Below, piece after piece: positions 4,940 through 51,766 of a stretch of DNA of 64,000 nucleotides (its first letter is position 1; each line of letters begins with the position of its first letter). Under the pieces are notes generated by a model. The model made no database searches. It was not told the origin of the DNA and saw only the letters and a program-made list of their open reading frames with translations. The DNA comes from Streptomyces sp. Q6 (GTDB lineage Bacteria > Actinomycetota > Actinomycetes > Streptomycetales > Streptomycetaceae): contig NZ_CP146022.1 in the NCBI RefSeq assembly GCF_036967205.1, positions 2,108,001 through 2,172,000 on the forward strand, written 5' to 3'. The position numbers were made by a program, and so were the translations under genes.

Positions 4940-6222
4940 ATGAGCGCGGGTGACGTGCGTTCCGATCGCGTCGAGGACGCGTCCTGGGAGGCCGGTCGGG
5001 TCGAGGCGCTTCAGCGGCGTACGCAGCGGGTGCTGGTCGCCTCGCAGATCCTCGGCGGGCTCGGGACCGCCACGGGGATCGCGCTGGCGGCCGTGCTCGC
5101 CAAGAAGGTCAGTGGGGACGAGGCGCTGTCGGGGCTCGCGTCCACGGCGAGCGTCGCCGGGACGGCGATCCTGTCGGTACCACTGGCCGCGCTGATGAAC
5201 GCGCGGGGGCGGCGGGCCGGGCTCGTGCTCGCCTATCTGATCGGCGCGGTGGGCGCCGTGGTGACCGTGCTGGCCGCCGCGGCCGGGAACTTCGCGCTGC
5301 TGCTCGTCGGGCTGGCGGGGTTCGGCGCGGCGTCGTCGGCCAATTTGCAGGCCAGGTACGCGGCGGCCGACCTCGCCGCGCCCGACCGGCGGGCCCGCGC
5401 CATCTCCACCGTCGTGTGGGCCACCACGATCGGCGCCGTGCTCGGGCCGAACATCGCCGCGCCCGCCGGCCGGAGCGTCTCCGGCCTCGGCATACCCGAC
5501 GAGTCCGGGCCGTTCGTCTGGGCGGCCGGGGTGTTCCTGATATCCGCGGTCCTGGTGCACGTACTGCTGCGTCCCGATCCGCTGCTGACGGCGAGGAGTC
5601 GGCTCCCGCCGAGGAGCGGTCGCCCGCGGCGCGCTCCCTGCGCGCGGGGTTCGCCGCGGTGTCCGGGTCGCCGCGGGCCCGGCTCGCGCTGGTGACGGTC
5701 GCGGTGTCGCACACCGCGATGGTCTCGGTCATGTCGATGACGCCGGTGGATCTCGAACACCACGGCGCGGGCATCGAGTTGATCGGGCTCGTCATCAGCG
5801 GACACATCGCCGGGATGTACGCGTTCTCGCCGGTGATGGGGCGTCTCGCCGATCGTTTCGGGCGGCTGACGGTGATCGGCCTCGCGGTGGGGCTGCTGGC
5901 CTGTGCGGCGATGCTGGCCGGGACGGCGGGCGGCAGTCACGCGCAGAGCGCCGCCGGCCTGTTCGTCCTCGGGCTCGGCTGGTCGGCGGGGCTCGTCGCG
6001 GGCTCCGCGCTGCTCACCGACTCCGTGCCGCAGGCCGCGCGGGCCGCCGCGCAGGGCCTGTCCGATCTGACGACGAGCCTGTCGGCGGGCATCGGCGGCG
6101 CCACCGCGGGCCTGGTCGTGGCGACGGCGAGCTACGCGTGGCTGAACCTGGCGGCGGCCTGCCTGCTTGTACCGCTGGGCGCACTGGCCCTGTTCACTCG
6201 GCGGCGCACCCAACAGGCTTAG
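4940..6222 (+). pseudogene. MFS transporter, frameshifted at about 5590
   Basis: Two overlapping reading frames encode the two halves of one major facilitator superfamily permease. The first (from ATG 4940; GTG 4925 is an alternative) gives six hydrophobic segments up to VLVHVLLRPDPLL; the second resumes with GEESAPAEERSPAARS and continues through six more segments, including the MFS loop GRLADRFGRLT, to the stop at 6222. Inserting one G at the GG of 5590-5591 joins them as RPDPLLTGEES with no other change. Substrate is unknown; the layout resembles drug or sugar exporters. Because the rest of both halves is intact, a sequencing deletion is more likely than a dead gene. Confidence 0.82.
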
Positions 6223-6235
6223 CGGGCAAGGGAGT

Positions 6236-6613
6236 TCAGCTCAGCGTGATGTGGTAGGCCTTGCGCAGCGTCTCGTGCACGGTCCACGTCGCGCGGTCGC
6301 CCTCGCGCAGTACGGCGGCGGTGCCGGGGCCGAGTTGCAGGGTGTCCCCGCCCTCGATCTCGACGGTGGCGCGGCCGCTGACGACCACGAACAGCTCGTT
6401 CGCCTCCGTGTCGGTGACGACGCCGGGCGTGATCTGCCAGATGCCGCGCAGCTGCTTGCCGTCGGGCGACTCCCACAGGACCGCGCCGGTGACGACGGGT
6501 GCGCCGGAGACGATCTGCGCGGGGTCGAGCGGCTCCGGTTCGAGTACGACGTCCGGGACGTGGACGGCGAAGGAGGCGTCGTCGGGGGCTGCGGTCAGAT
6601 CGTTCGTGGTCAT
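6236..6613 (-). CDS. Cupin-domain protein (DUF861-like)
   Basis: A 125-residue protein made of one small beta-barrel cupin. Visible features are the GIWQITPGVVTDTEANELFVVVSGRATVEIEGG stretch, broken here as ITPGVVTDTEANE and VVSGRATVEIEGG, and the second strand pair GPGTAAVLREGDRATW, the pattern of DUF861/ethanolamine-utilisation-like cupins. The canonical metal-binding histidines of cupin motif 1 are largely replaced, so enzymatic activity is doubtful; sugar or small-molecule binding is possible. It converges on the MFS gene with a 13-base gap. Function not known. Confidence 0.78.
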   Translation of the reverse strand: MTTNDLTAAPDDASFAVHVPDVVLEPEPLDPAQIVSGAPVVTGAVLWESPDGKQLRGIWQITPGVVTDTEANELFVVVSGRATVEIEGGDTLQLGPGTAAVLREGDRATWTVHETLRKAYHITLS

Positions 6614-6750
6614 GGCCGGTCACCCTAGTTGACCTGCGCCTCTGCTCTCACTGGACGGCCCGTAAGGTCCGGGCCCCGCCGACTGGACGGCCCGTCGAGG
6701 GGAAGACGGACCGTACATCGCATCGGAGCGGACAAGGAGTTCGTAGGGAC

Positions 6751-7005
6751 ATGGAGATCTCCGGCATATTCAGCGCGATCGTGATCGGCATCGTCATCGG
6801 CGTGATCGGGCGTCTGGTGCTGCCAGGTCGGCAGCGCATCGGGATTCTGGCGACGATCGTCGTCGGCATCGTGGCGGCCCTGCTCGGCACGGCGATCGCC
6901 GCGGGCTTCGACGTGGCCGACACCAAGGGCGTCGACTGGACGGAGTGGCTGATCCAGATCGGCCTCGCGACGTTCGGCGTCGCGCTGCTCGACCGCCGCC
7001 GCTGA
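6751..7005 (+). CDS. GlsB/YeaQ/YmgE-family small membrane protein
   Basis: An 84-residue hydrophobic protein with three predicted membrane segments (about residues 4-22, 31-50, 64-80) and the glycine-rich IGRLVLPG turn and GIVAALLGTAIA segment of the transglycosylase-associated/GlsB-YeaQ family. Members are general-stress membrane proteins whose biochemical role is not established. Start at ATG 6751; the best Shine-Dalgarno (AAGGAG at about 6734) is rather far upstream, with a weaker TAGGGA nearer. Stands alone between a divergent cupin gene and formaldehyde dehydrogenase. Confidence 0.85.
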   Translation: MEISGIFSAIVIGIVIGVIGRLVLPGRQRIGILATIVVGIVAALLGTAIAAGFDVADTKGVDWTEWLIQIGLATFGVALLDRRR

Positions 7006-7144
7006 CCCCCACGCCGTTCCCGCTTCAACAACGTGCCCCGGCAGGGCTCCTCAGCGGGCCGTTTCGGTAGCAGACTCCGCCGTGCGCACAGCCGGAACAT
7101 CCGCCGTTGAACGAGTCATGGAGCCGAAGGGACGGCGATCACGC

Positions 7145-8371
7145 ATGAGCGGAAACAGGGCAGTCGCATACCTCAAGCCGGGTGCGGTCGAGGTCAGGAC
7201 CATCGACCACCCCACGCTCGAACTGAAGGACGGCCCGGGGGTGGCGGCCGCGAATGTCGGCCGCACGTGCCGGCACGGAGTGATCCTCAAGGTGCTCGCC
7301 ACCAACATCTGCGGCAGCGACCAGCACATGGTGCGCGGTCGGACGACGGCGCCCGAAGGGCTCGTCCTGGGCCACGAGATCACCGGCGAGATCGTCGAGA
7401 GGGGACCGGACGTCGAGTTCCTTGACGTCGGGGACATCGTCTCGGTGCCGTTCAACATCGCCTGCGGGCGCTGCCGCAACTGCAAGGAGCGCAAGACCGG
7501 CATCTGCCTGAACGTCAATCCCGCGCGCCCCGGGGCGGCTTACGGCTATGTCGACATGGGCGGCTGGGTCGGCGGGCAGGCCGAGTACGTCATGATCCCC
7601 TACGCGGACTTCAACGTGCTGCGGTTCCCGGACGCGGACCAGGCGCGCGAGAAGCTCCTCGACCTGACGATGCTGTCGGACATCTTCCCGACCGGTTTCC
7701 ACGGCGCGGTGACCGCGGGGACGACCGTCGGCTCGACGGTGTACGTGGCCGGGGCGGGGCCGGTCGGGCTCGCGGCGGCCGCGTCGGCGCAGTTGCTGGG
7801 TGCGGCCGTGGTGATCGTCGGGGATCTGAACGCCGAACGGCTCGCACAGGCGCGGAGCTTCGGCTGCGAGACCGTCGATCTGACGCGTGGCACGGTCGAG
7901 GACCAGGTCGCCCAGATCCTCGGGGTGCCCGAGGTGGACGCGGCCGTCGACGCGGTCGGCTTCGAGGCCCGCGCGCACGGCCCGGACTCCCCCGAGGCAC
8001 CCGCGACCGTCCTCAACTCGCTGATGGGCCTCACGGCGGCGGGCGGCGCCCTCGGCATCCCCGGCCTCTACGTCACGGACGATCCGGGCGGCGTCGACCA
8101 GGACGCGCGGACCGGGACGCTGAAGGTGCGACTCGGCCTCGGCTGGGCCAAGAGCCACCGGCTCACGACCGGCCAGTGCCCCGTCATGACGTACCACCGG
8201 GGTCTGATGATGGCGATCCTGCACGAGCGGGTGCACATCGCGAAGGCCGTCAACGCGACGGTGATCGGTCTGGACGACGCACCGCGCGGTTACGCGGAGT
8301 TCGACCAGGGCGCGAGCAGGAAGTACGTCCTCGATCCGCACGGTGCGCTGAGCGGCGTACGGCCTGTGTGA
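7145..8371 (+). CDS. fdhA: Glutathione-independent formaldehyde dehydrogenase
   Basis: A zinc-dependent medium-chain dehydrogenase that oxidises formaldehyde to formate with tightly bound NAD, without glutathione (Pseudomonas putida PFDH type). In the 408-residue product the catalytic zinc ligands are Cys56 (NICGSDQH) and His77 (VLGHE); the structural zinc loop is CGRCRNCKERKTGIC; the Rossmann motif is GAGPVGLAAA. The long insertion typical of PFDH (NPARPGAAYGYVDMGGWVGGQAEYV) is present and distinguishes it from ordinary alcohol dehydrogenases. ATG 7145 (MSGNRAVAY) matches family N-termini better than the in-frame start at 7082. Likely role: detoxifying formaldehyde from demethylation reactions. 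Confidence 0.93.
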   Translation: MSGNRAVAYLKPGAVEVRTIDHPTLELKDGPGVAAANVGRTCRHGVILKVLATNICGSDQHMVRGRTTAPEGLVLGHEITGEIVERGPDVEFLDVGDIVSVPFNIACGRCRNCKERKTGICLNVNPARPGAAYGYVDMGGWVGGQAEYVMIPYADFNVLRFPDADQAREKLLDLTMLSDIFPTGFHGAVTAGTTVGSTVYVAGAGPVGLAAAASAQLLGAAVVIVGDLNAERLAQARSFGCETVDLTRGTVEDQVAQILGVPEVDAAVDAVGFEARAHGPDSPEAPATVLNSLMGLTAAGGALGIPGLYVTDDPGGVDQDARTGTLKVRLGLGWAKSHRLTTGQCPVMTYHRGLMMAILHERVHIAKAVNATVIGLDDAPRGYAEFDQGASRKYVLDPHGALSGVRPV

Positions 8372-8504
8372 GTCGAGGGATCGCCGGGGGCGGGGCCCAC
8401 GCGCGCGTGGAGCCCCGATTCCGTCCTTCATGTCGCGTGTTTGAGCGGGGCGCCGGGCCGCCAGTGATGACAGGGACGAGTTCCAACCGGCGGAAGGCGT
8501 ACGC

Positions 8505-9410
8505 ATGTTGGTCGTGGCGGACGAGGTACGGGAAGCACTCCTGGACGGGCGTCCGGTGGTGGCTCTGGAGTCGACGATCATCGCGCACGGGCTGCCGCGG
8601 CCCCGCAATCTGCGGGTCGCGGCGGAGCTGGAGAAGCTCGTACGGTCCGAGGACGCGGTGCCCGCGACGATCGCCGTTCTGGACGGGCACCCGTACGTCG
8701 GCCTGGACAAGCAGCAGTTGGAGCGGATCGCGACCGAGGACGGGATCCGCAAGCTGAGCCACCGCGATCTGCCGCTCGCCGCGGCGGCGGGCGCGAGCGG
8801 GGCCACCACGGTGTCGGCCACCGCCCTGCTCGCGGAGGCCGCCGGGATCCGGGTGTTCGCCACCGGCGGGCTCGGCGGCGTGCACCGGGGGTGGACGCAG
8901 ACGCAGGACGAGTCGGCGGACCTGGGGCTGCTCGCGCGGACCCGGATCACAGTGGTGTGCGCCGGGGTCAAGTCGATCCTGGACGTACCGGCGACGCTCC
9001 AGCGCCTGGAGACCCTGGGGGTGTCCGTCGCGGGGTTCGGGACGGAGCGCTTCCCCGGGTTCTATCTCGCCGACTCCGGTGAGCCCGTGGACTGGACGCT
9101 GCACACGCCCGCCGAGGTGGCACGGGTGATGCGGGCCCAGGACGAGCTGGGCAGCCCGGATTCCGCGCTGATCGTCGCCAACCCCGTACCGGAGGAGGAG
9201 CAGCTCGATCCGGCGCTGCACGCGCGCGTGCTGGAGAACGGGCTGCGGGAGTGCGCGGAGCGGAAAATCAGCGGGCAGGCCGTGACGCCGTTCCTGCTGG
9301 ACTACTTGGCGCGGCACACCGAGGGCGCCTCTCTGGAGGCCAATCTGGCCGCCGTCCGCGGGAACGTGCGGCTCGCGGGGCAGATCGCGGCGGCCCTGGC
9401 CGAGGTGTGA
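8505..9410 (+). CDS. psuG: Pseudouridine-5'-phosphate glycosidase
   Basis: PsuG cleaves the C-C glycosidic bond of pseudouridine 5'-phosphate, giving uracil and ribose-5-phosphate. The 301-residue product covers the whole indigoidine-synthase-A-like fold: ESTIIAHGLPRP near the N terminus, the active-site Lys region (CAGVKSILDVP), GGLGGVHRG, GTERFPGFY and the C-terminal GGQA-type segment SGQAVTPFLL. Length equals the family norm. The next gene, a PfkB kinase, starts inside its stop codon (GTGA at 9407-9410), so the two are translationally coupled, matching the psuG-psuK pathway in which the kinase phosphorylates pseudouridine before glycosidic cleavage. Confidence 0.95.
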   Translation: MLVVADEVREALLDGRPVVALESTIIAHGLPRPRNLRVAAELEKLVRSEDAVPATIAVLDGHPYVGLDKQQLERIATEDGIRKLSHRDLPLAAAAGASGATTVSATALLAEAAGIRVFATGGLGGVHRGWTQTQDESADLGLLARTRITVVCAGVKSILDVPATLQRLETLGVSVAGFGTERFPGFYLADSGEPVDWTLHTPAEVARVMRAQDELGSPDSALIVANPVPEEEQLDPALHARVLENGLRECAERKISGQAVTPFLLDYLARHTEGASLEANLAAVRGNVRLAGQIAAALAEV

Positions 9411-10326
9411 CGCGCGCGGGCGGCCGGGCGCTGCTCGTGGTCGGCGACGTCGTCACGGATGTCGTCGCGCGGCACCGCGGGCCGTTGGCGGCGGGGACGG
9501 ACACGGTGGCCGCCATTCGCACGGTGCCGGGCGGGGCGGGCGCCAACGTGGCGTGCTGGGCGGCGTACGCGGGTTGCCGGGACGTCGCGATGCTGGGGCG
9601 GGTGGGGGCGGAGTCCGCTCGGTGGCACGAGGACGCGCTCAGGCGGGCCGGGGTGCGGCCGCGGCTCGTCGTGGACGCGCAGGCCCCGACCGGGGCGGTG
9701 ATCTGCCTGGTGGACGGGGAGGCCGGAGCCGAGCGGACGTTCCTGACGGACAGCGGGGCGAGTCTGCGGATCGGGCCCGAGGACTGGTCGCCCGCCTCGT
9801 TGGAGGGGGTGGGGTGGTTGCACCTGTCCGGGTATCTGTTCTTCTCCCCCACGGCGCGGGAGTTGGTGTCGGTCGCGCTGAACGACGCACGCGCGCGCGG
9901 GGTGCCGGTGAGCGTGGATCCGGCGTCGGCGGGGTTCCTTCGGGAGAGGGGGACCCAGGCGTTTCTGGCGCTCGCGGACGGGGTGGAGCTGCTGGTGCCG
10001 AGCCGGGACGAGGCGGTGCTGCTCAGCGGGGCGGCGGAGGTGGAGGACGCTGCGGCCAAGTTGAGCGGCCGGTTCCCTGTGGTCGTGGTGAAGAACGGGG
10101 CGGAGGGGGCTTGTGTGGCGCGGGGTGGAGTGGTGCGGGAGCGGGTGGCGGTGCCGGGGGCCGCGGAGGTGGTGGTGCGGGATTCGACCGGGGCCGGGGA
10201 CGCGTTCACCGGCGGTCTGCTCGCCGCGCGGCTTCGGGGAGCGGGGTGGCCGGAGGCGGTGGCGGAGGGATGCCGGGCGGGGAGTCACGCCGTGGGGCGG
10301 ATCGGGGGCGGCCGCCGGAGCGGTGA
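9407..10326 (+). pseudogene. PfkB-family carbohydrate (pseudouridine-like) kinase, C-terminal frameshift
   Basis: Starts at GTG 9407, overlapping the psuG stop by GTGA. About 300 codons encode a ribokinase/PfkB kinase: GDVVTDVVARH at the N terminus, the GGAGANVACWAA substrate loop, and the anion-hole/catalytic motif DSTGAGDAFTGGLLA with the base Asp. Context suggests pseudouridine kinase (PsuK) activity, but PfkB kinases are broad. As written, the frame does not stop and runs antisense through the neighbouring methyltransferase to 11278. Adding one G to the G5 run 10304-10308 gives the natural end ...GRIGGRPPER with TGA at 10324-10326. The catalytic core lies upstream of the shift, so even the read-through version might fold. 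Confidence 0.8.
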
Positions 10327-10500
10327 GGTGGAGGCGGGTCGGCTGTCGAACGCGGGTGCCCGGCGCGGCGGGAGGCCCCCCGGCCCCGACGCGCCTTCCC
10401 GGTACGGGGCCTTGGTGAGGGACCGTCGATCGCGCAGTACCCCGCACCTCGGAAAGGCCCGAAAGGCTGCCCGCGCCCCTCGACGTCCCTGGTCGTGCCG

Positions 10501-11301
10501 TCAGGGCTTGCGGCCCCACGTCGAGATCAGGGGGGCCGTCGCCAGGTCCATCGTGCCCTCGGCCACGTTCGCCAGGTGGCGGTCGATCTCCTCGTTCGTG
10601 GCCAGTCCGGCCTCGACCAGGGACCCGCGGATCTGCTCGACCGTCGCCGCTTCCAGGGCCGTGCAGGCGGGGGACGTCAGAGGGAAGTACGCGTCGGCCT
10701 CCACCCTCTGCATGCCCGCCTCGCGCAGCAGGCGCGGGAGTTTGCGGCCGTACGAGAGGTCGGCGCCGCGATCGGCGAGCAGGCTGCGGAAGCCGTGCCG
10801 CAGCCGGTTGGCCAACTGCTGTTCGGGGCCTGACTCGTCGGGGCAGAGCAGGGGCTGGAGCGCGGGGTCGGCGTCCTCGATCAGCAGCCGGCCGCCGGGG
10901 CGCAGGGCGCGGATCATGGACGCCAACGCCCGCTCCCGGTCCGGGACATGGACCAGGACGAGGCGCGCGTGGACCAGGTCGAACCCCTCGACGGGTGGCT
11001 CGTCGACGCCCACGTCGTGTCGGCGCACCTCGACGGGCGTGCGGGGCGTGCTGGTCTGCCAGGACGTGTCGATGTCGGTGGCCAGGACCCGGCCGGTCGG
11101 GCCGACCTTGCGCGCCAGCCAGTCCACCACCGAGCTCCCGCCGGCGCCGACCTCCCAGCACCGCCACCCGGAACCGATGCCGAGGCGCTCGATGTGCCGG
11201 AACGTCGTGGGGTCGAACAGGGTCGAGAGGGCGTTGAAGCGCCGCCCCGCCTCGGCCTGTTGGTTGTCGAGGAGATAGGCGTGGCCACCGGATCGCATCA
11301 T
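10501..11301 (-). CDS. Class I SAM-dependent methyltransferase
   Basis: A 266-residue Rossmann-fold methyltransferase. Motif I is EVGAGGSSVVDWLA, motif II LATDID with the acidic ribose-binding residue, then LVHARLVLVHVPDRERALASM and the post-motif RALRPGGRLLIEDADP, the pattern of ubiquinone/menaquinone-biosynthesis-like small-molecule methyltransferases. Substrate not predictable. Two adjacent ATG codons (11301 and 11298) could start it. It is divergent from corA with a 267-base gap in which I see no strong promoter pair. The read-through extension of the frameshifted kinase overlaps it on the other strand but is not real coding. Confidence 0.85.
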   Translation of the reverse strand: MMRSGGHAYLLDNQQAEAGRRFNALSTLFDPTTFRHIERLGIGSGWRCWEVGAGGSSVVDWLARKVGPTGRVLATDIDTSWQTSTPRTPVEVRRHDVGVDEPPVEGFDLVHARLVLVHVPDRERALASMIRALRPGGRLLIEDADPALQPLLCPDESGPEQQLANRLRHGFRSLLADRGADLSYGRKLPRLLREAGMQRVEADAYFPLTSPACTALEAATVEQIRGSLVEAGLATNEEIDRHLANVAEGTMDLATAPLISTWGRKP

Positions 11302-11568
11302 GGCCCGATCATCCCAGCCCACCTGTCGGATACCGGGCATTTGGGCAGCTCGGGCCCCTCTCGGCGGAAATCGGAAGGGCGGCGGACGCCGGTGAGACGA
11401 CCGGTGGCACGATGGCCGTACACCCCTCGACATGGAGCGGAATCTTCCGTTCCCACAGGGCTGGACACGATGTCGGCGATCGCTGGCAGACTGGCTCGCC
11501 AGGTCACCCCACCGAACGGGGGGACAGTCGGACACGAGTGTGTACGGACGCGGCGCGAGGAGCCGAAC

Positions 11569-12696: not shown

Positions 12697-12706
12697 GGGG
12701 GCGGGA

Positions 12707-13126: not shown

Positions 13127-13220
13127 GAGGTGCCTCCCGTCGCCGGGATGAGTGGGGTGGGGGTGGGGGGTGTTCCCGGCGCCGTCCCTCATTCTCGCCG
13201 CGGTGTCCGTGGGGCGCATG

Positions 13221-13320
13221 TCAGCCGTTCCACGCCGGGTGACGGCCTGGGGCGTGGGTCAGCCGTTCCACGCCGGGTGGCGGCATGGGGCGTGGGTCAG
13301 CCGTTCCACGCCGGGTGGCG
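13221..13320. repeat. 38-bp tandem repeat carrying the stop codon of the next gene
   Basis: Units begin at 13221, 13259 and 13297 (each TCAGCCGTTCCACGCCGGGT...), giving 2.6 copies of a 38-base unit. The third copy is the real 3' end of the uridine-kinase-like gene (complement of PAWNG-stop). The gene end has thus been duplicated downstream twice, in non-coding DNA; 38 is not a multiple of three. Confidence 0.9.
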
Positions 13321-13938: not shown

Positions 13939-14003
13939 GATGCCGGGGCGCGCGATGGGCCCGAGGGGGGTGGTCGACCGGGTGGGGCGGGCATGACGTC
14001 CGT

Positions 14004-14692
14004 ATGAGCAGCGCCGTCGCCTCGTCCCGTGCCGTCCGTGGTCCGCTCGTCTTCCAGCCGGTCAGACGCAGACGGTGCGTCGCGTGCCGGGTCGGGCCGC
14101 TCGCGCTGGTGGCGATCGAGGACGGGCAGCCGCGCTGTATGGACTGCGCGGACCTGGGGCATCTGGTGTATCTGCCGCGCGGCGACACGGCGTTGACCCG
14201 GCGGGCCCGTGAGGAGAGCGCGCTGTCGGCGGTCGTGGTGCGGTTCCATCGGCGGCGCGGGCGGTACGAGCGGCAGGGCGTGCTCGTCGAGGAGGCGGCG
14301 CTGGCGCGGGCCGAGGCGCGGTGCCTGGCGGACGCGGAGGCGCGGGCGCGGCGGCGGGCTCGGGACGCGGTGCGGAGGGCGGCGCAGGACGAGCGGTTCG
14401 TCGCGGCGTTCGCGGCGGAGATCCGGCGACTGTTCCCCGGCTGCCCGGCGGAGCGCGCCGTCGCGATCGCCGGGCACGCGGGGGTGCGGGGCAGTGGGCG
14501 GGTGGGGCGGAGCGCGGCGGGACGGGCGCTGACGGAAGGAGCGGTGGTCGCGGCGGTGCGGGCCGCGGTACGACACGTGGACACGCCGTACGACCGGTTG
14601 CTGATGGAGGGGTGCCGAGGCGGGAGGCACGGTCGCGGGTGGCGGCGGGCGTCGCGGCCGTGCTGGACGCGTGGCGGTCGGCGGCGTCCTGA
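14004..14692 (+). pseudogene. DUF2293-domain protein, frameshifted near its 3' end
   Basis: About 229 codons after repair. The N terminus has a CxxC pair (RRCVACRVGP and RCMDCADLGHL) suggestive of a small zinc site, then an alanine/arginine-rich helix, and the DUF2293 core (FAAEIRRLFPGCPAERAVAIAGHA ... RHVDTPYDRLLMEG). At the G4 run 14609-14612 the frame changes; with one more G the sequence continues GVPRREARSRVAAGVAAVLDAW and stops at 14692, as in relatives. As written, the frame runs instead into the G-rich repeat region and stops near 14993 with meaningless residues. Function of DUF2293 is unknown; common in Streptomyces. Confidence 0.8.
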
Positions 14693-19833: not shown

Positions 19834-19928
19834 GGTTCCTCCTCGGATCGGTTCTCCGAAGGGGTGACCGGGGGTGGCACCGGAACTCATCGCTACCGCC
19901 GAAGAATTCTTTCCCACTTCCTTTCCCT

Positions 19929-22413: not shown

Positions 22414-24238
22414 TCAGGCGGCCAGTTCCGCGAGCAGCACGCCGATCCGTTCGGCGTGCTGTTCCGGCACCCGCCCGGTGTCGTCGACCTGCACGGCGCA
22501 CGCGGTGGTCGTGTCGACGAGGCTCTCCAGGACGACGGTGACGTGCCGGGACCCGTCGGAACGGCGCGCGAGCACGGGCAGTTCGGCGGCGGCCAGGTCC
22601 ACGGCGGCCCGCGCCTCGGCGAGCGTGCGGTACGCCTCGCGCCGCAGCGCCCACCGCCCCGCCGGGTCGGCCACCCCGTCGGCGTCCTCGCGCAGCACAT
22701 GCCGTACGTAGGCCTGGGCGGCCTCGCGGGCGACGGCGAGCCGCACCCGTACACCGCCTCCGCCGTGCGCGCCCGGCCACGGCAGATGTCCGGCGACCAG
22801 CACGATGGCGCAGGCGAGGAGCGTCTCGGTGATCCGGCTCCAGGAGGCCTGCGGTTCGCCGCCGACCATGACGAGGGACAGCACGAGCACGGTGATCACG
22901 GCGGTCTGCGCGGCGAAGTGCCGGGTGGCGACGGGGATCAACGCCCCGCACAGCGCCACGAGCGCGACGAGCCCGAAGGGCCTGGACAGCAGCGCGGCGA
23001 GCCCGGCGAAGGCGGCGGCGCCCGCGACGGTGCCCGCGGCCCGGCACAGGACGCGGGAGGCGAGCGGCCCGAGGTCGGGCTTGACGAGGAACACGGCGGT
23101 GGCGGGCAGCCAGTACCAGTGTCCGGGGTGCAACGCCTGGGCGACCGCGGCGCCGGCCCCGAAGCTCAGGCCGACACGGGCGCCGTACTCGCGCCCCGCG
23201 GGACCGAGCGCCCGGCGCAGCGAAGCCGTCGCGGGGACCCGCCGCCGCGCGGGAGCCCGTACGTCACCGCCGTCGAACGCCTCGGCGGCCCGCAGCAGCG
23301 CCTCGTCCAGGGCGCGCAGCCCGCGTCGGCGCGGACGGGCGCGGGCAGCGGTCCCGACGGCTCCCCGGAGCGTACGGCGGCGGCGAGGCGCCGCGGCCCT
23401 CGGCGACGCGTTCCGGCAGGGTCTTCCCGGCCCAGGCCAGCGCGGTGGCGGCCTCGGCGAGCGGCAGCGCGGCGACGTACAGCGCGCGCAGCCGCCGGGT
23501 CGCGGCGGCCCCGCCGCGCAGGGCGTCCTGGGCCTGGTCGAGCGCGGCGGTCAGGGCGGCGCGGCGGGCCCTGGCGTGGGGTCCGCCGACGGCGTCGAGC
23601 AGTCCGGCGACAGCGTCGTACACGGCGGCGACGGCGACGCGTTCACCGTCGTAGAGATAGTCGAGGCGCTTGGCGCCGAGCCCCTTCCTGCGAGTCGTAC
23701 GGGTACGGGTACGGCCGACGGGTGAGGGCAGGACGAGGCGGAGCACGATCAGCCAGCCGCCGCCCGCGGCGAACAGCAGCGCCCGCTGCCACCCGGCCTC
23801 CGGCAACGGCATCCCGGCCCCGACGGCGACGGTCACCAGGAACTGCGTCCCCGCCGCCGACGCGACGGGCCCGACGGCGCTGAACGCGCCCCCGATCATG
23901 CCGAGCACGGCGAAGACCCCGACGACGGCGATCCCGCTCCCCGCCATCCCGCTCCCGGCGAGCCCGCTGCCGATCAGCATCCCCAGCGCCCCGGCGAGCG
24001 CGGGCCCGCCCAGCCGGGTGACGGCGGCCCAGCGCGGCCCCGGCCGGTCGTTCACCCCGGCGAGCATCGCCCCGAGCGCGAGCAGGACTCCGCACGACGC
24101 CCGCCCGGCGCCGACCGCGACGAGCAGCAGCGGACCGGCGGCGAGGACGCCGCGCACGACGGCGGGCCAGGGGACGGGGGCGCGCTGGGCGCGCAGGGCG
24201 TGACCGAGCCAGGGCGGAAGCGAGTGGAGGCGGCTCAT
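22414..24238 (-). pseudogene. FUSC-family membrane protein, two frameshifts
   Basis: Two halves of one aromatic-acid-exporter-like/FUSC protein. The N-terminal half (from about 24238, MSRLHSLPPWLG) has six membrane segments rich in Gly/Ala, then a cytoplasmic helical part ending GKTLPERVAEG; the C-terminal half has ALHPGHWYWLPATAVFLVKPDLG and five more segments. Between them three frames are used in succession: PRRLAAAVRSGEPSGPLPAPVRADAG sits in the third. Restoring one base in the CCC at 23397-23399 and one in the CCC at 23320-23322 yields a continuous protein of about 609 residues. Function (efflux of aromatic or small acids) is inferred from family. Confidence 0.8.
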
Positions 24239-24369
24239 GGGGAGGTGCGAACTCCTGTCGGGCGGTGTCGGGGTGGTGCTGGACGACATCGGCCAACCTG
24301 AACTTCTGCTCCCACCGTAAAGGGAGGTGTGGAAGGGAACGAAACGCCCAGGTTTCCGCAATGTGACAC

Positions 24370-24927
24370 TTGACCGTGACCACGCCCCGAGAAGACCCGC
24401 CGGCCGACGACGGCTGGCCGGACGCCCCCGGCGACACGGCGCTGACGATCCACGTCCCCGAGGCGGACCACCTGGTCCGCACGGGGTCCCGCGCCCATGT
24501 GACGCTGCTCTATCCGTTCCTGCCGCTGTCCGAGATCGACGACCGGACGGAGCGCGCGCTCCGCGACCTCTTCGCGGCGGCCCCGCCCCTGACGCTCACG
24601 TTCTCGGGCGCGGAGCTGCGCCGCTGGCCCGGCGTCCTCTATCTCTCCCCGTCCCCCGCGGACCCGCTGCGCGCGCTCACGAAGGCCCTGCGGGAACGCT
24701 GGCCGCGGGCGGTGCCGTACCGGGGGATCTTCGGCGACGAGGGGCTCGACCCGCATCTGACGCTGGTGGCGGGTCCGGGTACGGACGACGTCCCGGACTG
24801 CGACTTCACCCCGCACCTCCCCCTGTCGACGACGGTCGACACGGTCCGTCTGATCGTCACGGACGGCCGGGGCACGGGCTGGCGCGACGCCCGCGCCTAC
24901 CCGCTGGCGCCGTCGCCGTCGCCCTGA
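24370..24927 (+). CDS. 2'-5' RNA ligase-like 2H phosphoesterase
   Basis: A 185-residue protein with the two His-x-Thr motifs of the 2H phosphoesterase superfamily: HVTLLYPFLP near residue 43 and HLTLVAGPG near residue 137, placed in the two symmetric lobes. Such proteins open 2',3'-cyclic phosphates or ligate RNA 2'-5' ends in vitro; the in vivo role is unclear. The start is uncertain between TTG 24370 and GTG 24376. It is divergent from FUSC and its last 31 bases overlap the convergent nucleotidyltransferase gene. Confidence 0.85.
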   Translation: MTVTTPREDPPADDGWPDAPGDTALTIHVPEADHLVRTGSRAHVTLLYPFLPLSEIDDRTERALRDLFAAAPPLTLTFSGAELRRWPGVLYLSPSPADPLRALTKALRERWPRAVPYRGIFGDEGLDPHLTLVAGPGTDDVPDCDFTPHLPLSTTVDTVRLIVTDGRGTGWRDARAYPLAPSPSP

Positions 24928-31667: not shown

Positions 31668-32401
31668 CTAAGAAGAGTCGCCCGAACGCTCCTGATCTGC
31701 TGCTCCGTTCGGGGTCACCTGGAGGCCCGCCGCGCGCGCCGCCGTGCTCAGCGTCCCGCGCAGCATCTCCGGGGTGAGTCGTCCGGTGAAGGTGTTGCGC
31801 CGGCTGACGTGGTAGCAGCCGACGAGGGCGAGTCCGCCGAGGTCGGCGCGGGCGCCGTGCGCGAAGACCGGCCGGGGCGCGGCACCGGCCACCCGGCCGC
31901 GGCGAACGCGGGCAGTGCCGCCTGCCAGCCGAACGCGCCGAGCACGACGACCGCGCGCAGGGTGGGCCGCAGCAGGTCGAGCTCCCGCACCAGCCAGGGG
32001 CGGCAGGTGTCGCGCTCGGCCGGGGTCGGCTTGTTGGCTGGTGGCGCGCAGTGCACGGGCGCGGTGACGCGGACGCCGCGCAGGGTCAGACCGTCGTCGG
32101 CGCTCACCGCGTCGGGGCGGGAGGCCGGCCCGATGTCGTACAGGGCGCGGAAGAGCACGTCACCCGACCTGTCGCCGGTGAACATGCGGCCCGTGCGGTT
32201 GCCGCCGTGCGCGGCGGGCGCGAGGCCCACGATCAGGAGCGACGCGTCGTGCGGCCCGAAGCCGGGGACCGGGCGGCCCCAGTAGGTCTGATCGGCGAAG
32301 GCCGCCCGCTTGGTGCGGGCGACCTCCTCGCGCCAGGCGACGAGCCGCGGACAGGCCCGGCAGTGGGTGATCCGCTCGTCGAGTTCTCCGAGTCCGTCCA
32401 T
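31668..32401 (-). pseudogene. udgB: Family 5 uracil-DNA glycosylase (UdgB), one frameshift
   Basis: UdgB removes uracil and other deaminated bases from DNA. The N-terminal part has the 4Fe-4S cysteines ([14 protein letters not shown]), the family-5 active-site loop [21 protein letters not shown] (in which the activating Asp of other families is replaced, as normal for family 5) and [13 protein letters not shown]. The C-terminal part, in another frame, has [18 protein letters not shown], the CYHxSxxNTFTG motif with the catalytic His. One extra G in the G4 run 31874-31877 joins them ([13 protein letters not shown]). About 245 residues after repair. Both halves are perfectly conserved, so a read error is likely. 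Confidence 0.85.
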
Positions 32402-32448
32402 CGTCCTCACGGTAGGGGGGCGCCCGACGCCCGCGGCCCTGCAGGCGG

Positions 32449-43198: not shown

Positions 43199-43228
43199 TC
43201 GACTACCGGTCAGTCAGCGCAGAGCGGT

Positions 43229-44734: not shown

Positions 44735-45195
44735 GTGGGAAAGGGCTCCGGCGGACATTGAAGTCGTAGGTACTGCTACGCCGGGAGCCTGTTTCGCACC
44801 GAAGAAGCCGGACAGCCTAGGAGGCGCCGAATCCGGCGAACTCCCACGGACACTGTCCGAAGGAACCGGTGGCGCCTCGATAACCGAGGGGACATACAAC
44901 AGATGCGAGCACAGCCTGCTATGTCTGAGGTGCGCAGGCCCGCAGCGCAACTTGTAGCATACGGGGGCAGCCGGACAGGGTCAATGCGCGAAGGCGCACA
45001 CCCGGGGCGGAACGCCGCATACCCGGCACAAAACCTGTCGCACGAGGCTACGAGGGCCGCAGAGCCCGCTCGTGACGCCCTTCCTCGCGGCAGGTTGGAC
45101 GGAAGATTACGACGAGGGAGCCGATCATCCAAGAGTCCGGACCAAGGGAAGCGCACGAGCCGTCGGCGGCGGGTGCGGCACAAGCGGCGAACTCC
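44735..45195. other. rpsA leader and divergent intergenic region
   Basis: 461 bases without a convincing gene. From about 44950 to 44735 it is the untranslated leader of rpsA, containing GGAGCCC near the ATG and several short self-complementary segments (for example GGCGCC around 44825 and 44871). The remaining part to 45195 precedes a methyltransferase gene and holds a TGA-limited open frame but no ATG/GTG/TTG start. Confidence 0.6.
44956..44984 (-). promoter_or_regulatory. Strong housekeeping-type promoter for rpsA
   Basis: On the minus strand TTGACC (complement of 44979-44984), a 17-base spacer, then TATGCT (complement of 44956-44961). Both hexamers are close to the HrdB (sigma-70) consensus, rare in this GC-rich DNA, and fit a ribosomal-protein gene. 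Transcription would begin near 44949. Confidence 0.8.
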
Positions 45196-45996
45196 GTGGA
45201 CGAGGACTCCACGGCGACCCGCCGCGCCGCGGACACCACGGAGAGTGCGCGGGCCAACCGCGGCTGGTGGGACCGGAACGCGGACGACTATCAGGTCGAG
45301 CACGGCACGTTCCTCGGGGACGACCGCTTCGTGTGGGGTCCCGAGGGCCTCGACGAGGTGGAGGCCGAGCTCCTCGGCCCGGCCGAGGAGCTGGCCGGCA
45401 AGGACGTCCTGGAGATCGGGGCCGGCGCCGCGCAGTGCTCGCGCTGGCTGGCCGCCCAGGGCGCGCGGCCCGTCGCGCTCGACCTCTCGCACCGCCAGCT
45501 CCAGCACGCGCTGCGCATCGACGGCGGCAAGGTGCCGCTGGTGGAGGCGGACGCGGGAGCACTGCCCTTCAAGGACGGGTCCTTCGACCTGGCCTGCTCC
45601 GCGTACGGCGCGCTCCCCTTCATCGCGGACTCCGTGCGCGTGCTGCGGGACGTGCACCGGGTGCTGCGGCCCGGCGGCCGGTTCGTCTTCTCCGTCACGC
45701 ACCCCATCCGCTGGGCGTTCCCGGACGAGCCGGGGCCCGAGGGCCTGAGCGTGGCCTCCTCCTACTTCGACCGCACCCCTTATGTGGAGCAGGACGACGA
45801 GGGGCGTGCCGTGTACGTGGAGCACCACCGCACGATCGGCGACCGGGTGCGCGATGTCGTGGCGGGCGGCTTCCGGCTCGTCGACCTCGTGGAGCCGGAG
45901 TGGCCCGCGTGGAACACGCAGGAGTGGGGCGGCTGGTCCCCGCTGCGCGGGAACCTGATCCCGGGCACGGCGATCTTCGTCTGTGAGCGTCTGTAG
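45196..45996 (+). CDS. Class I SAM-dependent methyltransferase
   Basis: A 266-residue methyltransferase of the Methyltransf_11 type: NRGWWDRNADDYQVEHG at the N terminus, motif I VLEIGAGAAQCSRWLA, LDLSHRQLQHAL, LVEADAGALPFKDGSFDLACSAYGALPF (core FKDGSFDLACS), then HRVLRPGGRFVFSVTHPIRWAFP and a C-terminal substrate part ending PEWPAWNTQEWGGWSPLRG. The WWDRNADxYQ start is characteristic of an actinobacterial subgroup. GTG 45196 is the first standard start in frame; no strong ribosome site. Substrate unknown. Confidence 0.87.
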   Translation: MDEDSTATRRAADTTESARANRGWWDRNADDYQVEHGTFLGDDRFVWGPEGLDEVEAELLGPAEELAGKDVLEIGAGAAQCSRWLAAQGARPVALDLSHRQLQHALRIDGGKVPLVEADAGALPFKDGSFDLACSAYGALPFIADSVRVLRDVHRVLRPGGRFVFSVTHPIRWAFPDEPGPEGLSVASSYFDRTPYVEQDDEGRAVYVEHHRTIGDRVRDVVAGGFRLVDLVEPEWPAWNTQEWGGWSPLRGNLIPGTAIFVCERL

Positions 45997-46172
45997 GTAG
46001 GACGGCGCGCGGGGGGATCGACCGTCAGCCACAGGGCCGCTGTCTCCTCGGCCGTCTTCCGGCCGGCGCGCTGCCTGATGAGACCCTCCTGCGCCGCTCC
46101 CCCTATAAGAGGTGACGACGGCCGGGCCGGGACCGCCCGGGGGCCCACCCGCGCGTCAAGGAGACTGGGGGC

Positions 46173-48677
46173 GTGATCCGCAGCGACCTCCTCGACCAGT
46201 TGCCCGTCCGCTCCGCGCTGCCCGCGCTGCGTTCCGCGCTCGACACGGGCGGCGTCGCGGTGCTCGTGGCACCGCCGGGCACCGGCAAGACGACGCTGGT
46301 GCCCCTCGCGCTAACCGGACTCCTGACGCCGGACGGCCCGGCGCGGCGGGTCGTGGTCGCCGAGCCGCGGCGGATCGCCGCGCGCGCGGCGGCCCGGCGG
46401 ATGGCGTGGCTGCTCGGCGAGGAGGTCGGCGGGCGCGTCGGCTACACGGTGCGCGGCGAGCGGGTCGTGGGCCCCGGCACACGCGTCGAGGTCGTCACGA
46501 CCGGCGTGCTGCTCCAGCGCCTCCAGCGGGACCAGGAGCTGAGCGGCGTCGACGCCGTCCTTCTCGACGAGGTCCACGAGCGGCATCTGGACGCGGACAC
46601 CGTCGCGGCCTTCCTGTGCGACGTGCGGGAGGCGCTGCGCCCGGATCTGGAGCTGGTCGCGGCGTCCGCGACGACGGACGCCGAGGGGTGGGCGCGGCTG
46701 CTCGGGGACGTGCCGGTCGTCGAGGCGCGGGGCACCGCCCATCCGGTGGAGGTGGTGTGGGCGCCGCCCGCGCGCCCGGTGCGGCCGCCGCACGGGATGC
46801 GGGTGGATCCGGCGCTCCTGACGCATGTGGCGGCCGTGGTGCGCCGCGCCCTGGGCGAGCGGGACGGGGACGTGCTGTGCTTCCTGCCGGGTGTCGGTGA
46901 GATCGCCCGGGTCGCGGGGCAGCTGGGGGCCTGGGCGACGTCGACGTGCTCCAGGTGCACGGCCGGGCACCGGCCGCCGTGCAGGACGCGGTGCTCGCGC
47001 CGGGGTCCCGGCGGCGGGTCGTCCTGGCCACGGCCGTCGCGGAGTCGTCACTGACGGTGCCGGGCGTACGGATCGTCGTGGACGCGGGCCTCGCGCGCGA
47101 GCCCCGGGTGGATCACGCCCGGGGCTGAGCGCGCTGACGACCGTACGGGCTTCGCGCGCGGCGGGGACGCAGCGGGCGGGGCGGGCCGGGCGGGAGGCGC
47201 CGGGCGCGGTGTACCGGTGCTGGGACGAGGCGGAGGACGGGCGGCTCGCGCGGTTCCCGTCCCCGGAGATCAAGGTGGCGGACCTGACGGCGTTCGCGTT
47301 GCAGGCGGCGTGCTGGGGCGACCCGGAGGCGTCGGGGCTCGCGCTGCTCGACGCGCCGCCGGGCGGGGCGATGGCGGCGGCCCGATCGGTACTGACGGCG
47401 GTCGGGGCGGTGGAGCCGGGTGCGGGCCGGGTGACGGAGCGCGGGGTACGGCTGGCCCGGCTCGGGCTGCACCCGCGCCTGGGGCGCGCACTGGTCGACG
47501 CGGCGCCGGTGGTGGGCGCGCGGGCGGCGGCCGAGGTGGTCGCGCTGCTGAGCGAGGAGCCGCCGCGCGACTACGGGGACGATCTGGGCGGGGCGCTGCG
47601 GGCGGCCCGGCGCGGCGGGGACGCCTACGGTGCGCGGTGGCGCCAGGAGGTGCGACGGCTGACGGGGCTCGTCCCGGGGCGGGCAAAGCGGCGCGCGGCG
47701 GCGGGGACGATCACGTCGCCGGGGTGGTCGCCGCCCTCGCGTTCCCCGAGCGGGTCGCCCGCAAGGACAAGGGCTCGTATCTGATGGTGTCGGGGACGCG
47801 GGCGGAGGTGTCGGACGGGTCGGCGCTGCGGGACGCCGCGTGGGTGGCCGCCGCTGTCGCCGACCGGCCGGTGGGCGCGGGGCACGCGCGGTTGCGGCTC
47901 GGGGCGGTCGTGGACGAGGAGACGGCGCGCTGGGCCGCCGCGTCGTTCTCCGCCGAGGGTGACGAAGTGGCGTGGAGCGAGGGGGAGTTGATCGCGCGGC
48001 ACGTGACCCGGCTGGGCGCCGTCGAACTCGCCGTGCGCCCGTTGAGGAACCCCGCGCCCGGTCTCGTACGGGACGCTCTGCTGGACGGGCTGCGGCGGGA
48101 GGGGCTGGGTCTTCTGCGGTGGGACCGGGACGCGGAGGCGCTGCGGCGGCGGCTCGCGTTCGTGCGGCGGCAGGCCGGGGAGCCGTGGCCCGACGTGAGC
48201 GACGAGGGGCTGCTGGCGCGCGCCGGCGAGTGGCTGGAGCCGGAGTTGAGCGCGGCGCGGCGCCGGGCCGACCTCGGGCGGATCGACGCCGGGCAGGCGC
48301 TGAAGCGGCTGCTGCCGTGGGCCAGCGGCGACGCCGCGCGGTTCGACGCGCTGGCGCCGGAGCGGATCGAGGTGCCGAGCGGGTCACGGGTGCGGGTCGA
48401 CTACGCCGATCCCGAACAGCCCGTGCTGGCCGTGAAGTTGCAGGAGATGTTCGGGTTGCAGGAGACGCCGCGGGTGGCGGGGGTCCCCGTTCTGGTGCAT
48501 CTGCTGTCGCCCGCCGGGCGGCCCGCCGCCGTGACCGCCGATCTCGCCTCGTTCTGGCGCGACGGGTACCGGTCGGTGCGGGCCGATCTGCGGGGCCGCT
48601 ACCCGAGGCATCCGTGGCCCGAGGACCCGGCGACGGCCGAGCCCACCCGGCACACGAACGCCCGCCTCAGGCGATGA
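46173..48677 (+). pseudogene. hrpB: ATP-dependent helicase HrpB, three frameshifts
   Basis: A DEAH-type RNA helicase-like protein of about 835 residues after repair (E. coli HrpB: 809). First frame: APPGTGKTTLVPLAL (Walker A), VVVAEPRRIAARAA, DEVHERHLDAD (motif II), SATTDAEGW, then LCFLPGVGEIARVAGQLG. Second frame: VLQVHGRAPAAVQDAVLAPG, RRVVLATAVAESSLTVPGV. Third frame: the winged-helix part GRVTERGVRLARLGLHPRL. Fourth: the HrpB-specific C-terminal domain, to ...TNARLRR. Each junction is repaired by one G: runs 46925-46929, 47121-47124 and 47703-47706. All motifs are intact, so the gene is probably functional. GTG 46173 follows GGAG. Confidence 0.85.
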
Positions 48678-49659
48678 CCGGTTCCGGTTCCCTGGCGGGT
48701 TCCGGTTCCGGTCCGCCGGGCCTGCGGCCGCGCGCCTCCAGCCACAGGGCGAGCGCGAGCAGCAGGACGCCGAGGGTCAGGAAGCCCCACGGGAGGTACG
48801 AGGTGAGCAGGAGGACCAGGACGCGGTTGGAGTTGACCAGGTCGACGGTCGACCTGATGTAGTCCTCGCGCATCTTCACGTGGCCCTTGAAGACGGTGAC
48901 CTTGTCGCGGCCGCCGAGGAGGGTGCCGCCGCGCAGCTCGTTGTTCTGGATCTCCTCGCCGTACACGGGCGCCCCGGTGGTCGGCTCGACCCAGAACTTG
49001 CGGACGGTCGTGTACCAGCGGGTGGTGCCCGTCTTGGCGACGGACTCCGGTGTGATGCCCTTGACCGGCATCGACTTCGGCAGCGGCACCTTCGTCCAGG
49101 GGATGGTCTGCTCAAAGTAGTAGACCTTCACGCCGCGGAACGTGGTGGTGCCCTTGTAGTGGATGGGGCGGGTGACGCGGGCCTGCGCGTCGTAGTACTC
49201 GTAGTCGCGCTTCTCCGTCAGGAAGGGCCACTTGAACTCGATGCCCTCGCGCTTGACCTGGTCGCCATCGACCATCTCGCCGGTGGCGTGGACGGGTTCC
49301 TGGCTGTGCGCGTCGAAGATGTAGCGCTCGGGGACCTTGGAGACCATCTCGCCGTCGGGCCCGACGATGTACGACAGCGCGTCCCAGACGACGACATCGC
49401 GCCCCGCGCTCTTCTCGATCTTGTCCGACTCCTCGACGTTGCCCTTGAGGGTCTGGACGACGGTGACCTTGGAGACCTTCTTGGCCTGGAGGGAGCCGTA
49501 GTCGAGGAGGGTGGGGTTCTTCGCCTCCAGGACGGCGGTCTGGTACTGGTCGGCCGGGATCTTGGCCAGGCGCGGGAACACGTACCAGCGCATCAGTGGG
49601 GACAGCGCCGTGCAGAACACGGCGAGGGCGAGCAGGATCAGGCTGGCCTTGCGGCGCAT
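48667..49659 (-). CDS. DUF3068-domain membrane-anchored protein
   Basis: A 330-residue protein with an N-terminal membrane helix (residues 5-24), a large extracellular beta-rich domain (RDVVVWDALSYIVGPDGEMVSKVPERYIFDAHS, cited by VVVWDALSYIV and ERYIFDAH; later GVKVYYFEQTIPW, TRWYTTVRKFWVEPTTGAPVYGEE) and a C-terminal helix (LLLTSYLPWGFLTLGVLLLALALWL). This is the DUF3068 architecture, related to porin PorA-like surface proteins of mycolic-acid bacteria, but role in Streptomyces is unknown. Its 3' end overlaps the hrpB stop by 11 bases. Confidence 0.88.
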   Translation of the reverse strand: MRRKASLILLALAVFCTALSPLMRWYVFPRLAKIPADQYQTAVLEAKNPTLLDYGSLQAKKVSKVTVVQTLKGNVEESDKIEKSAGRDVVVWDALSYIVGPDGEMVSKVPERYIFDAHSQEPVHATGEMVDGDQVKREGIEFKWPFLTEKRDYEYYDAQARVTRPIHYKGTTTFRGVKVYYFEQTIPWTKVPLPKSMPVKGITPESVAKTGTTRWYTTVRKFWVEPTTGAPVYGEEIQNNELRGGTLLGGRDKVTVFKGHVKMREDYIRSTVDLVNSNRVLVLLLTSYLPWGFLTLGVLLLALALWLEARGRRPGGPEPEPAREPEPVIA

Positions 49660-49717
49660 CTCGGCGGCCCTCCTCGGCGACTCGTGGACAACGGCGCGCT
49701 CCTGGGCGACGGCCCGG

Positions 49718-49852
49718 TCATGGATGCGCGGGGACGGTGGTGAGCAGTGGTTTCGGGGACGTCTCGCCCGCGGGTGAGCCCACTGCCGTGAGGGTGAGGA
49801 CGAGGGCGAAGGCCGCGGCGAGCCCGATCGCCGCGGCTATGAGGGCACGCAT
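49718..49852 (-). CDS. SPW_0924-family short membrane peptide
   Basis: A 44-residue peptide: one membrane helix (ALIAAAIGLAAAFALVLTLTA) followed by a conserved-looking tail GSPAGETSPKPLLTTVPAHP. It matches my memory of the short Streptomyces family named SPW_0924, whose function is unknown. ATG 49852; the frame extends upstream to 49909 without a better start. It lies 58 bases upstream of the DUF3068 gene on the same strand. Confidence 0.6.
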   Translation of the reverse strand: MRALIAAAIGLAAAFALVLTLTAVGSPAGETSPKPLLTTVPAHP

Positions 49853-49949
49853 GTCCGACCTCCGCGGATCTGATGGTGCGTCAGCCTTTGGGTCGGTGCA
49901 CCGTAGCAACGGCGGTGAAGAATGAGAACACGTCGCGCAGGACCGAAAA

Positions 49950-49980
49950 GAGCCCCCGGCCGTAGGACGGCCGGGGGCTC
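49950..49980 (-). terminator. Rho-independent terminator of the transglycosylase gene
   Basis: A 14-bp perfect stem GAGCCCCCGGCCGT (49950-49963) / ACGGCCGGGGGCTC (49967-49980) with loop AGG, 24 bases past the minus-strand stop at 50004; on the minus strand it is followed by TTTT (complement of 49946-49949). A textbook terminator. Confidence 0.92.
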
Positions 49981-50003
49981 ATGTGCGCCGTGCGCGCGGT
50001 GGG

Positions 50004-51766
50004 TTACGCGGACGGGCTCGCGGACGCCGTGGGGGTCTCGCTCGCCCCGCCGGTCGGCGCGGCGGTCACCTTCAGCTCGATCGTCAGCGTCGCGCCGCCG
50101 GTGGTGGTGACGCGGAGCAGGAACGTGCCGGCGGTGTCGTCCGCGTACAGCTTCGGCAGCGTGAGCTTGCCGTCGGCGTCCGTCTTCAGGCCCGTGAGGG
50201 TGCGGACCGTCGTGCCGTCCGCGTTCTTGAAGTACGGGCCCTTGGTGGCCGCGGTCGGGTCGTCGGCGGACGTGATCAGCGTGGCGGTCGCGGCGACGCC
50301 GTCGGCGACCGCTCCCTTGTACGTCGCCTTCACCTCGACGGCGTCGGCGAACGTGCCGCCGGCGACGCAGGTGAGCGCCGTGTCGCCGGTACGGGCCAGC
50401 GCGTCGGCCGCGCGGGCGGTGACGGTCGCCGCGTAGTCGAGGCCGCTCAGGGTGCGGCCGACGACGGTGGCGCGGACCGTGAACCGCCCGGTGTTCTCCC
50501 CGCGCGCAGGACCGGTGCCGTGGCGGTGCCCGCGCCGGTGGTGGTGACGACGGCGCTGGTCGCGCCGCCGGAGAACGTCGCGTCCGTGGTGCCGACGATC
50601 GTGAAGCGGATCCGGACGTCGGCGACGCCGGTGCCCGCCGCGTTCTTCGCGCGCACCGCGACCCGCTCGCCGAAGGTGTCCCCGGCCATCGCGCTGAGCG
50701 TGCCGGTGCCCGCGTCGGCGAGCTTGCGGACGGACTCGGTGGGCGTGGGGGTGGCGGGCGGTGTCGTCGGATCGGCCGGCGAGGGGCTCGTGGAACCGCC
50801 GCCTCCACCACTGCCGCTGCCGCCTCCGCCGCCGGGCGTGCTCGGGGCCCTCGGCGGCGTCGGGGACGGGCTTCCCGTGTTGCCGCCGGTGCCGCTGCCG
50901 GATCCCGAGCCCGAGCCGGTACCGCCGCCATTGCCGGTGGGGTACTTCGGCAGCGGGCCGGTGCCGTCGGGGACCTCGTGCGTGCCCTTGCGGTAGAACT
51001 CCAGCCACGACAGGACCTTGCCGAGGTAGTCCGAGGAGTTGTTGTAGCTGAGGATCGCCTTGTTCAGGTCCGTCGCGTTCGACAGATCCCAGCCGTTGCG
51101 GCACAGGTAGTGGCCGGCGGCGAGGGCGGCGTCGTAGACGTTGTTGGGGTCCTTCTTGCCGTCGTCGTTGCCGTCGCGGCCGGCCCACTCCCAGGTGGAG
51201 GGGATGAACTGCATGGGGCCGACGGCCCGGTCGTGGACCGTGTCGCCGTCGTACGAGCCACCGTCGGTGTCGGTGATCTTCGCGAAGCCGTTGCCGTCGA
51301 GGGGCGGGCCCTTGATGGGGTCCTTCGTGTCGCCGTTCGCGAAGACGTTGCCGCCGTCGGCATGGCCCGACTCGACCCTGCCGATCGCCGCGAGCAGCTC
51401 CCACGGCAGGTTGCAGCCGGGCTTGGACGTCGCGAGTTCGGCCTCGGCCTTCTTGTACGCGTCGAGGACGGTCGCCGGTATCTCGGAGTCCTCGTCGGTC
51501 GCGGTACCACTGCCGCTGCCGCCGCCGGGTGAGGCCGACGGGGAGTCGGTGGGGCTGTTGAGGTCCGGCAGGTCCTTGTAGTAGTCCGGGCCGGACGCCG
51601 CGTCGGGGACGTCGTCGGCACGGTCCGAGGCCGAGTGCCCGCTGTCCGCCTGCGCCGGTGGGGTCACGCCCGGTGCCTGGGACGCGGAGAGCGCCGCCAC
51701 CGCGACCGCGGCGACCGCTGCCGTCATCGCACCCCTACGCAACCGCCTGCCGAAAACCGCAGCCAT
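50004..51766 (-). pseudogene. Secreted lytic transglycosylase with Ig-like domains, one frameshift
   Basis: After repair about 588 residues. A signal peptide (residues 1-40, ending PPAQA) precedes an SLT-type lytic transglycosylase domain: LPWELLAAIGRVESGHADGG with the catalytic Glu in RVESG, DRAVGPMQFIPSTWEWAG, and NNVYDAALAAGHYLCRNGWDL. A long Gly/Ser/Pro linker follows, then two beta-sandwich (Ig/Big-like) repeats: LADAGTGTLSAMAGDTFGERVAVRAKNAAGT and LARTGDTALTCVAGGTFADAVEVKATYKG. The frame breaks in the second region: one extra base in the CCCC at 50498-50501 restores AGENTGRFTVRATVVG. It would cleave peptidoglycan glycan strands at the cell surface. ATG 51766. Confidence 0.85.

Follow-up and report, generated by a model that had tools for sequence, protein, structure and literature searches.

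Ten one-base frame breaks in a Streptomyces genome window very probably reflect undercalled homopolymers in the assembled consensus

Seven conserved genes with broken frames

The stretch analyzed here, referred to as the window, is the 64,000-nt segment G000:C1:2108001-2172000 of the Streptomyces sp. Q6 genome (G000; two contigs, of 8,566,166 and 385,579 bases, for a total of 8,951,745), in which seven conserved genes have reading frames broken at a total of ten sites. These genes encode an MFS transporter, a PfkB carbohydrate kinase, a DUF2293 protein, a FUSC/YccS-like protein, a uracil-DNA glycosylase, the helicase HrpB, and a transglycosylase. A sequence-only reading of the window had counted about ten frameshifts in these genes, all acting as the loss of one base; the count of ten stands, and every break has the direction of a loss (10/10; p = 0.002, sign test). 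We compared the window with five syntenic relatives by blastn, using a MAFFT alignment instead at the end of the PfkB gene, and found it one base short (modulo 3) at all ten sites against every relative aligned across them. That reading had also proposed checking the same genes in relatives, and no relative aligned across a site shares its shift. Among the 392 genomes searched, the closest had 84% identity at hrpB; at one conserved stretch, for which 142 of the 392 were scored, the closest had 89%, so that none counts as a second genome of the species.

Two further tests were applied to the window and to other parts of the genome. A codon-usage hidden Markov model (HMM) served as a reference-free scan that needs no relative at the site; it was trained on the genomes G103 and G308, both of which were also used as controls, and 68 named loci (1.415 Mb) provided controls outside the training set. 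A strict pairwise test accepted a break only where the relative's frame was continuous by the codon usage of both genomes and the relative was open across the site.

The first of the broken genes, for the MFS transporter, lies on the plus strand at 4943-6204, and its pieces at 4943-5584 and 5602-6204 each match MFS_1. The break falls at 5588-5604, where the window is short at 5588-5600 against all three aligned relatives, the HMM places a call at 5585, and the open reading frame (ORF) of G103 is divided by tblastn between two frames with 86% and 94% identity. Its exact place is uncertain within 5588-5604, and the site is outside any run of three or more, the longest G/C run there being two. 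The PfkB gene (9353-10309, plus strand), recognized by its PfkB match, the MAFFT alignment, and its translation, is broken at 10304-10308. Blastn alignments end at this point; by MAFFT, the window is one base short against 3/3 relatives, with poor alignment beyond the gene end. The claimed shift is present, but its effect is confined to the end of the gene: the final codons are altered, the stop is removed, and the frame continues open to 11278. The run-on of 10309-11278 probably overlies an opposite-strand gene, and automatic annotation could report it as a spurious long ORF.

In the DUF2293 gene (13989-14690, end approximate, plus strand), the family match is in the first piece and the break at about 14606-14612; the window is short at 14606-14611 against four of four relatives by blastn, and the G103 ORF matches 13989-14612 in a single frame by tblastn. 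The FUSC/YccS-like gene on the minus strand (22417-24442) has two breaks, at 23319-23326 and 23394-23399, each with a shortfall against 4/4 relatives. FUSC_2 matches 22417-23310, while no family match was found for the upstream piece; the HMM places a call at 23371 whose direction matches two losses combined, and the G059 ORF falls in two frames. Also on the minus strand, the uracil-DNA glycosylase superfamily gene (31710-32422), which has a UDG match, is broken at 31874-31878, the window being short within 31834-31878 against all three aligned relatives, with ORFs of both G059 and G103 in two frames.

The helicase gene hrpB (46122-48674, plus strand) matches TIGR01970 (HrpB) and HrpB_C and carries three breaks, at 46924-46931, 47121-47124, and about 47703, where the window is short by blastn against five of five, five of five, and four of four relatives aligned across, respectively. 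In the fifth relative, G236, the alignment ends before reaching the 47703 site, and a plus one stands at 47662, four bases from that end. The three shifts total minus three and the 5′ and 3′ ends are in the same physical frame, with a stop at 47052-47054 between them. Last, the SLT-domain transglycosylase gene (50007-51868, minus strand; SLT_2 match) is broken at about 50498-50501: the window is short within 50484-50513 against 5/5 relatives, the HMM places a call at 50498, and ORFs of G312, G059, and G103 each fall in two frames.

Pfam-level names are found on the separate pieces of these genes (MFS_1, PfkB, DUF2293, FUSC_2, UDG superfamily, DEAD helicase/HrpB_C, and SLT transglycosylase), which bears out the proposed gene names at the level of families. 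The name udgB holds only for the superfamily, as the UDG family 4 match is under the NCBIfam whole-protein cut-off, and TIGR01970 is matched by both end pieces of hrpB, each likewise under its whole-protein cut-off.

Taken as a set, the breaks are recovered to different extents by the different methods. By tblastn, ORFs of relatives fall in two frames for the MFS, UdgB, transglycosylase, and FUSC genes, with this frame evidence limited to rows having a clean split, as the choice of ORF was unreliable for hrpB, PfkB, and others. In a control for this comparison, 16 of 137 ORF comparisons involving the window were split versus 14 of 414 among relatives; seven of the 16 are at the sites described above and the other nine elsewhere, mostly at ORF ends, and four of the seven genes (hrpB, FUSC, DUF2293, and PfkB) were not flagged by this automatic count. 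The HMM made six calls in the window, accounting for seven of the ten sites and missing PfkB, DUF2293, and the middle hrpB break, versus 1, 1, 1, and 2 calls over the same region in four relatives. The strict pairwise test flags 7/10 sites (MFS, PfkB, and DUF2293 fail it), together with one gain, at 7109 against G312, close to a gene start. Small length differences from most relatives that are not multiples of three also occur at 19834-19856 and 62869-62913, seemingly in leader or intergenic sequence; losses of this kind may be present outside genes as well.

Excess of losses and dependence on run length

Including the window, we examined 1.25 of the 8.95 Mb of G000. The strict test was run on two 400-kb blocks, 4.3-4.7 Mb and 2.17-2.57 Mb, of which 576.5 kb aligned to G103. 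Here, G000 had 21 net breaks of minus one and a single plus one, whereas G103 had three of each (Fisher p 0.022); net plus two and minus two numbered three each in G000. In the comparison with G308, covering 231.7 kb of the first block, four breaks of minus one, one of minus two, one of plus two, and zero of plus one were found in G000, and one break of minus two in G308.

The HMM scan gave the same asymmetry with larger numbers. Loss-type and gain-type calls in G000 were 26 and 5 in the first block, 15 and 9 in the second, 21 and 7 on the second contig, and 5 and 1 in the window, where the single gain-type call corresponds to the two FUSC losses together. The totals of 67 losses and 22 gains in 1.25 Mb compare with 39 and 36, respectively, across 2.93 Mb from other Streptomyces, so that the density of loss-type calls, at 53.6 versus 13.3 per Mb, is four times as high in G000 (p 2e-12), whereas gain-type calls show no significant rise over other Streptomyces (p 0.20). 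The controls comprised G103 (8 losses and 8 gains in 880 kb), G308 (7 and 8 in 480 kb), G059 (0 and 1 in 70 kb), G312 (1 and 0 in 80 kb), and the 68 named loci (23 and 19 in 1.415 Mb), with slight double counting in that two of the loci, L009 and L011, may derive from the genomes represented by G312 and G059. If the comparison is restricted to the named loci, losses in G000 remain about three times as frequent. Extrapolated from the 1.25 Mb to the whole genome, the strict count gives 326 such breaks and the HMM excess 361, both before correction for sensitivity, or about 515 if the HMM detects seven in ten. Central and outer chromosome regions at first seemed likely to differ; under the stricter method the difference was not significant.

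The breaks are concentrated at homopolymers. Among 27 localized events, which include three window sites (near 5590, 10306, and 14610) added by hand after failing the strict filter, 21 have a G/C run of at least four bases no more than 5 nt away, compared with 12.6% of random positions. With the affected run taken as the longest one within 5 nt, the 17 strict events of the two blocks imply losses, by true run length, of 1 of 16,987 runs of three, 1 of 4,116 runs of four, 13 of 997 runs of five, and 2 of 120 runs of six, corresponding to rates of 0.006%, 0.024%, 1.3%, and 1.7%, the last resting on two events. The window had been described as losing bases in G/C runs exclusively. The 21 of 27 agree with this for the most part, but the MFS site lies outside any run of three or more; the lost base need not have been a G or C at every site, and the conclusion does not depend on G or C being the right base to restore. 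The apparent confinement to G/C, offered as a signature of undercalling, follows mostly from composition, because 716 of the 730 window runs of four or more are G/C and only 14 are A/T. The overall distribution of homopolymer lengths showed nothing unusual compared with G103, G059, and 1.52 Mb of named loci, and would not reveal the error because too few runs are affected. We also considered a motif or base-modification cause, in which relatives have GG-N-GG and the middle base is lost; the events are few, and a synonymous third-position change to G together with a shorter run explains them equally well, and this candidate was set aside.

Consensus error versus real frameshifts

We regard the ten breaks as very probably errors of the assembled consensus caused by homopolymer undercalling, with reads that would contradict it; support comes from the one-sided losses, their dependence on run length, the excess on both contigs, the absence of the breaks from relatives, and unrelaxed constraint in the broken genes. 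They are most likely an artefact of a known kind rather than a biological feature, and the organism itself most likely carries all seven genes intact. A long-read assembly, we infer from PacBio or nanopore data, may not have received sufficient accurate short-read polishing; this would leave short G/C runs recorded with one base missing at a few hundred sites across the genome, and those inside genes would mimic frameshifts.

The constraint on the broken genes bears on the idea that they are ordinary pseudogenes that decayed in this lineage, which would account for frames that are truly broken in the given sequence. With the seven genes pooled, 210 of 410 lineage-specific substitutions in the window (51%) are at third codon positions, as compared with 45-57% in the relatives (G103, 210/407; G308, 376/828; G312, 172/301; G059, 139/249), and there is no overall sign of relaxed constraint. 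Small single segments vary and some are not rich in third-position changes, such as the short end of UdgB (4/15 in the window), and the PfkB count is noisy, having taken in a neighboring gene (21/69 at third positions in the window). In hrpB, mismatches against G103 are mostly at third positions of the original frame on both sides of the breaks. Since substitutions favor third positions about as much as in relatives, and the excess across 1.25 Mb is of losses rather than gains, we consider decay extremely improbable, and the warning in the sequence-only reading that annotating these genes as pseudogenes would mislead is borne out. Equally little probability attaches to programmed frameshifting or compensating shifts, which would concern chiefly hrpB, where the two end parts do share a physical frame; the shifts are absent from every relative aligned across the sites, the shifted stretch of hrpB is interrupted by its internal stop rather than open, and seven unrelated genes are affected.

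A less remote rival, still one we hold to be unlikely, is that these are real and recent one-base deletions, produced by replication or repair that favors loss in G/C runs, in genes only just broken. It would fit the apparent dispensability of the nameable broken genes and the wholeness of all five essential genes tested, and slippage likewise rises with run length. However, ordinary slippage is not expected to be so one-sided as 21 losses to one gain in 576.5 kb; hrpB would need three independent deletions and FUSC two, very unlikely as real events in genes with no overall sign of decay; and conservation flanking the events is not significantly lower than at other runs. In its strongest form, this explanation posits a process in the strain that shortens G/C runs of at least five by one base throughout the genome and hardly ever lengthens them. 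We give that form the same small chance; if it were true, several hundred freshly broken genes would be tolerated, or read through by transcriptional slippage.

Several observations do weigh against consensus undercalling. Conservation is slightly lower in the flanks of 17 events than in the flanks of other runs (0.843 vs 0.858, p 0.18), with seven of the 17 in the lowest conservation quartile and four in the highest. The long essential genes dnaE, carB, infB, rpoC, and leuS are unbroken (5/5), and of 26 broken ORFs, 25 were scanned as the unbroken version of the relative, with no nameable one clearly essential, the names including MobA-like, CobN, CobS, AfsR-like, NsdA-family, SLATT, YccS-like, MFS, and others. 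The sample of essential genes decides nothing, because at about 17 kb only 0.6 to 1 break would be expected in it. When the 31 HMM calls of the first block were inspected by eye, about 8 proved to be clearly one base short of an aligned relative, 3 were ambiguous, 5 were unsupported or too messy, and 15 had no alignment across. Two of the 27 localized events adjoin only runs of two or less. The window is also denser in breaks by raw count, with 10 in 64 kb versus 2.3-3.7 expected (p 0.0002 to 0.004), whereas with one strict method applied throughout its difference from elsewhere is not significant (p 0.17). On balance, the undercalling interpretation of the sequence-only reading is supported by a pattern that is one-sided, run-length-dependent, and present on both contigs, in genes whose constraint is unrelaxed.

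Precedents and consequences for annotation

Errors of this type are already well known. One study of actinobacteria (PMC4849082) describes PacBio consensus as tending to miss one G or C in homopolymers, and 454 as doing the reverse, and notes that frame plots make this visible. The likeness to G000 is close, with a G or C missing from the final consensus and Streptomyces frames shifted in a way detectable by frame plot or BLAST; in contrast to G000, which is known here from its assembled sequence alone, those deletions were checked by Sanger or Illumina sequencing. Comparisons of PacBio-only with Illumina-corrected Streptomyces genomes, in two further papers, list 70, 295, and 335 differences, the vast majority of them single-base homopolymer insertions (PMC6923854), and 205 indels, nearly all within G/C homopolymers (PMC4832174). 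These numbers of corrections, mostly single-base homopolymer indels, agree in order of magnitude with the estimate of about 326 to 515 for G000, which, unlike those genomes, apparently went without (enough) such correction. For a nanopore assembly, PMC12007338 (Kastor) describes gene-fragmenting indel errors that are mostly false deletions, most of them after runs of four to five. There too false deletions prevail, mostly following runs of those lengths, but A/T runs dominate in that 59% GC Pseudomonas, whereas the long runs of G000 are nearly all G/C.

The relevance of the finding is limited to annotation. By the estimates given above, several hundred G000 genes may figure in annotation as pseudogenes or split ORFs although they are whole, and studies of gene loss, of pathways (for example CobN and CobS of vitamin B12 synthesis), or of pan-genomes that use this assembly would be misled. 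Without reads, a codon-usage scan together with relatives reveals the one-sided, run-length-dependent pattern, and is usable as a quality check for high-GC assemblies.

Two minor observations lie outside the window. At G000:C1:1789410-1792147, the first 69 profile positions of a second DnaE-type polymerase lie in a different open frame from positions 85-895, possibly through another break of the same kind. On the second contig, 20 kb of sequence resembles Streptomyces plasmids, with the best match to Streptomyces sp. NBC_00028 (51% covered at 90.8%), and includes a 3.7-kb stretch with 99.9% identity to a region of an S. anulatus plasmid annotated with a Tn3-family transposase and merB.

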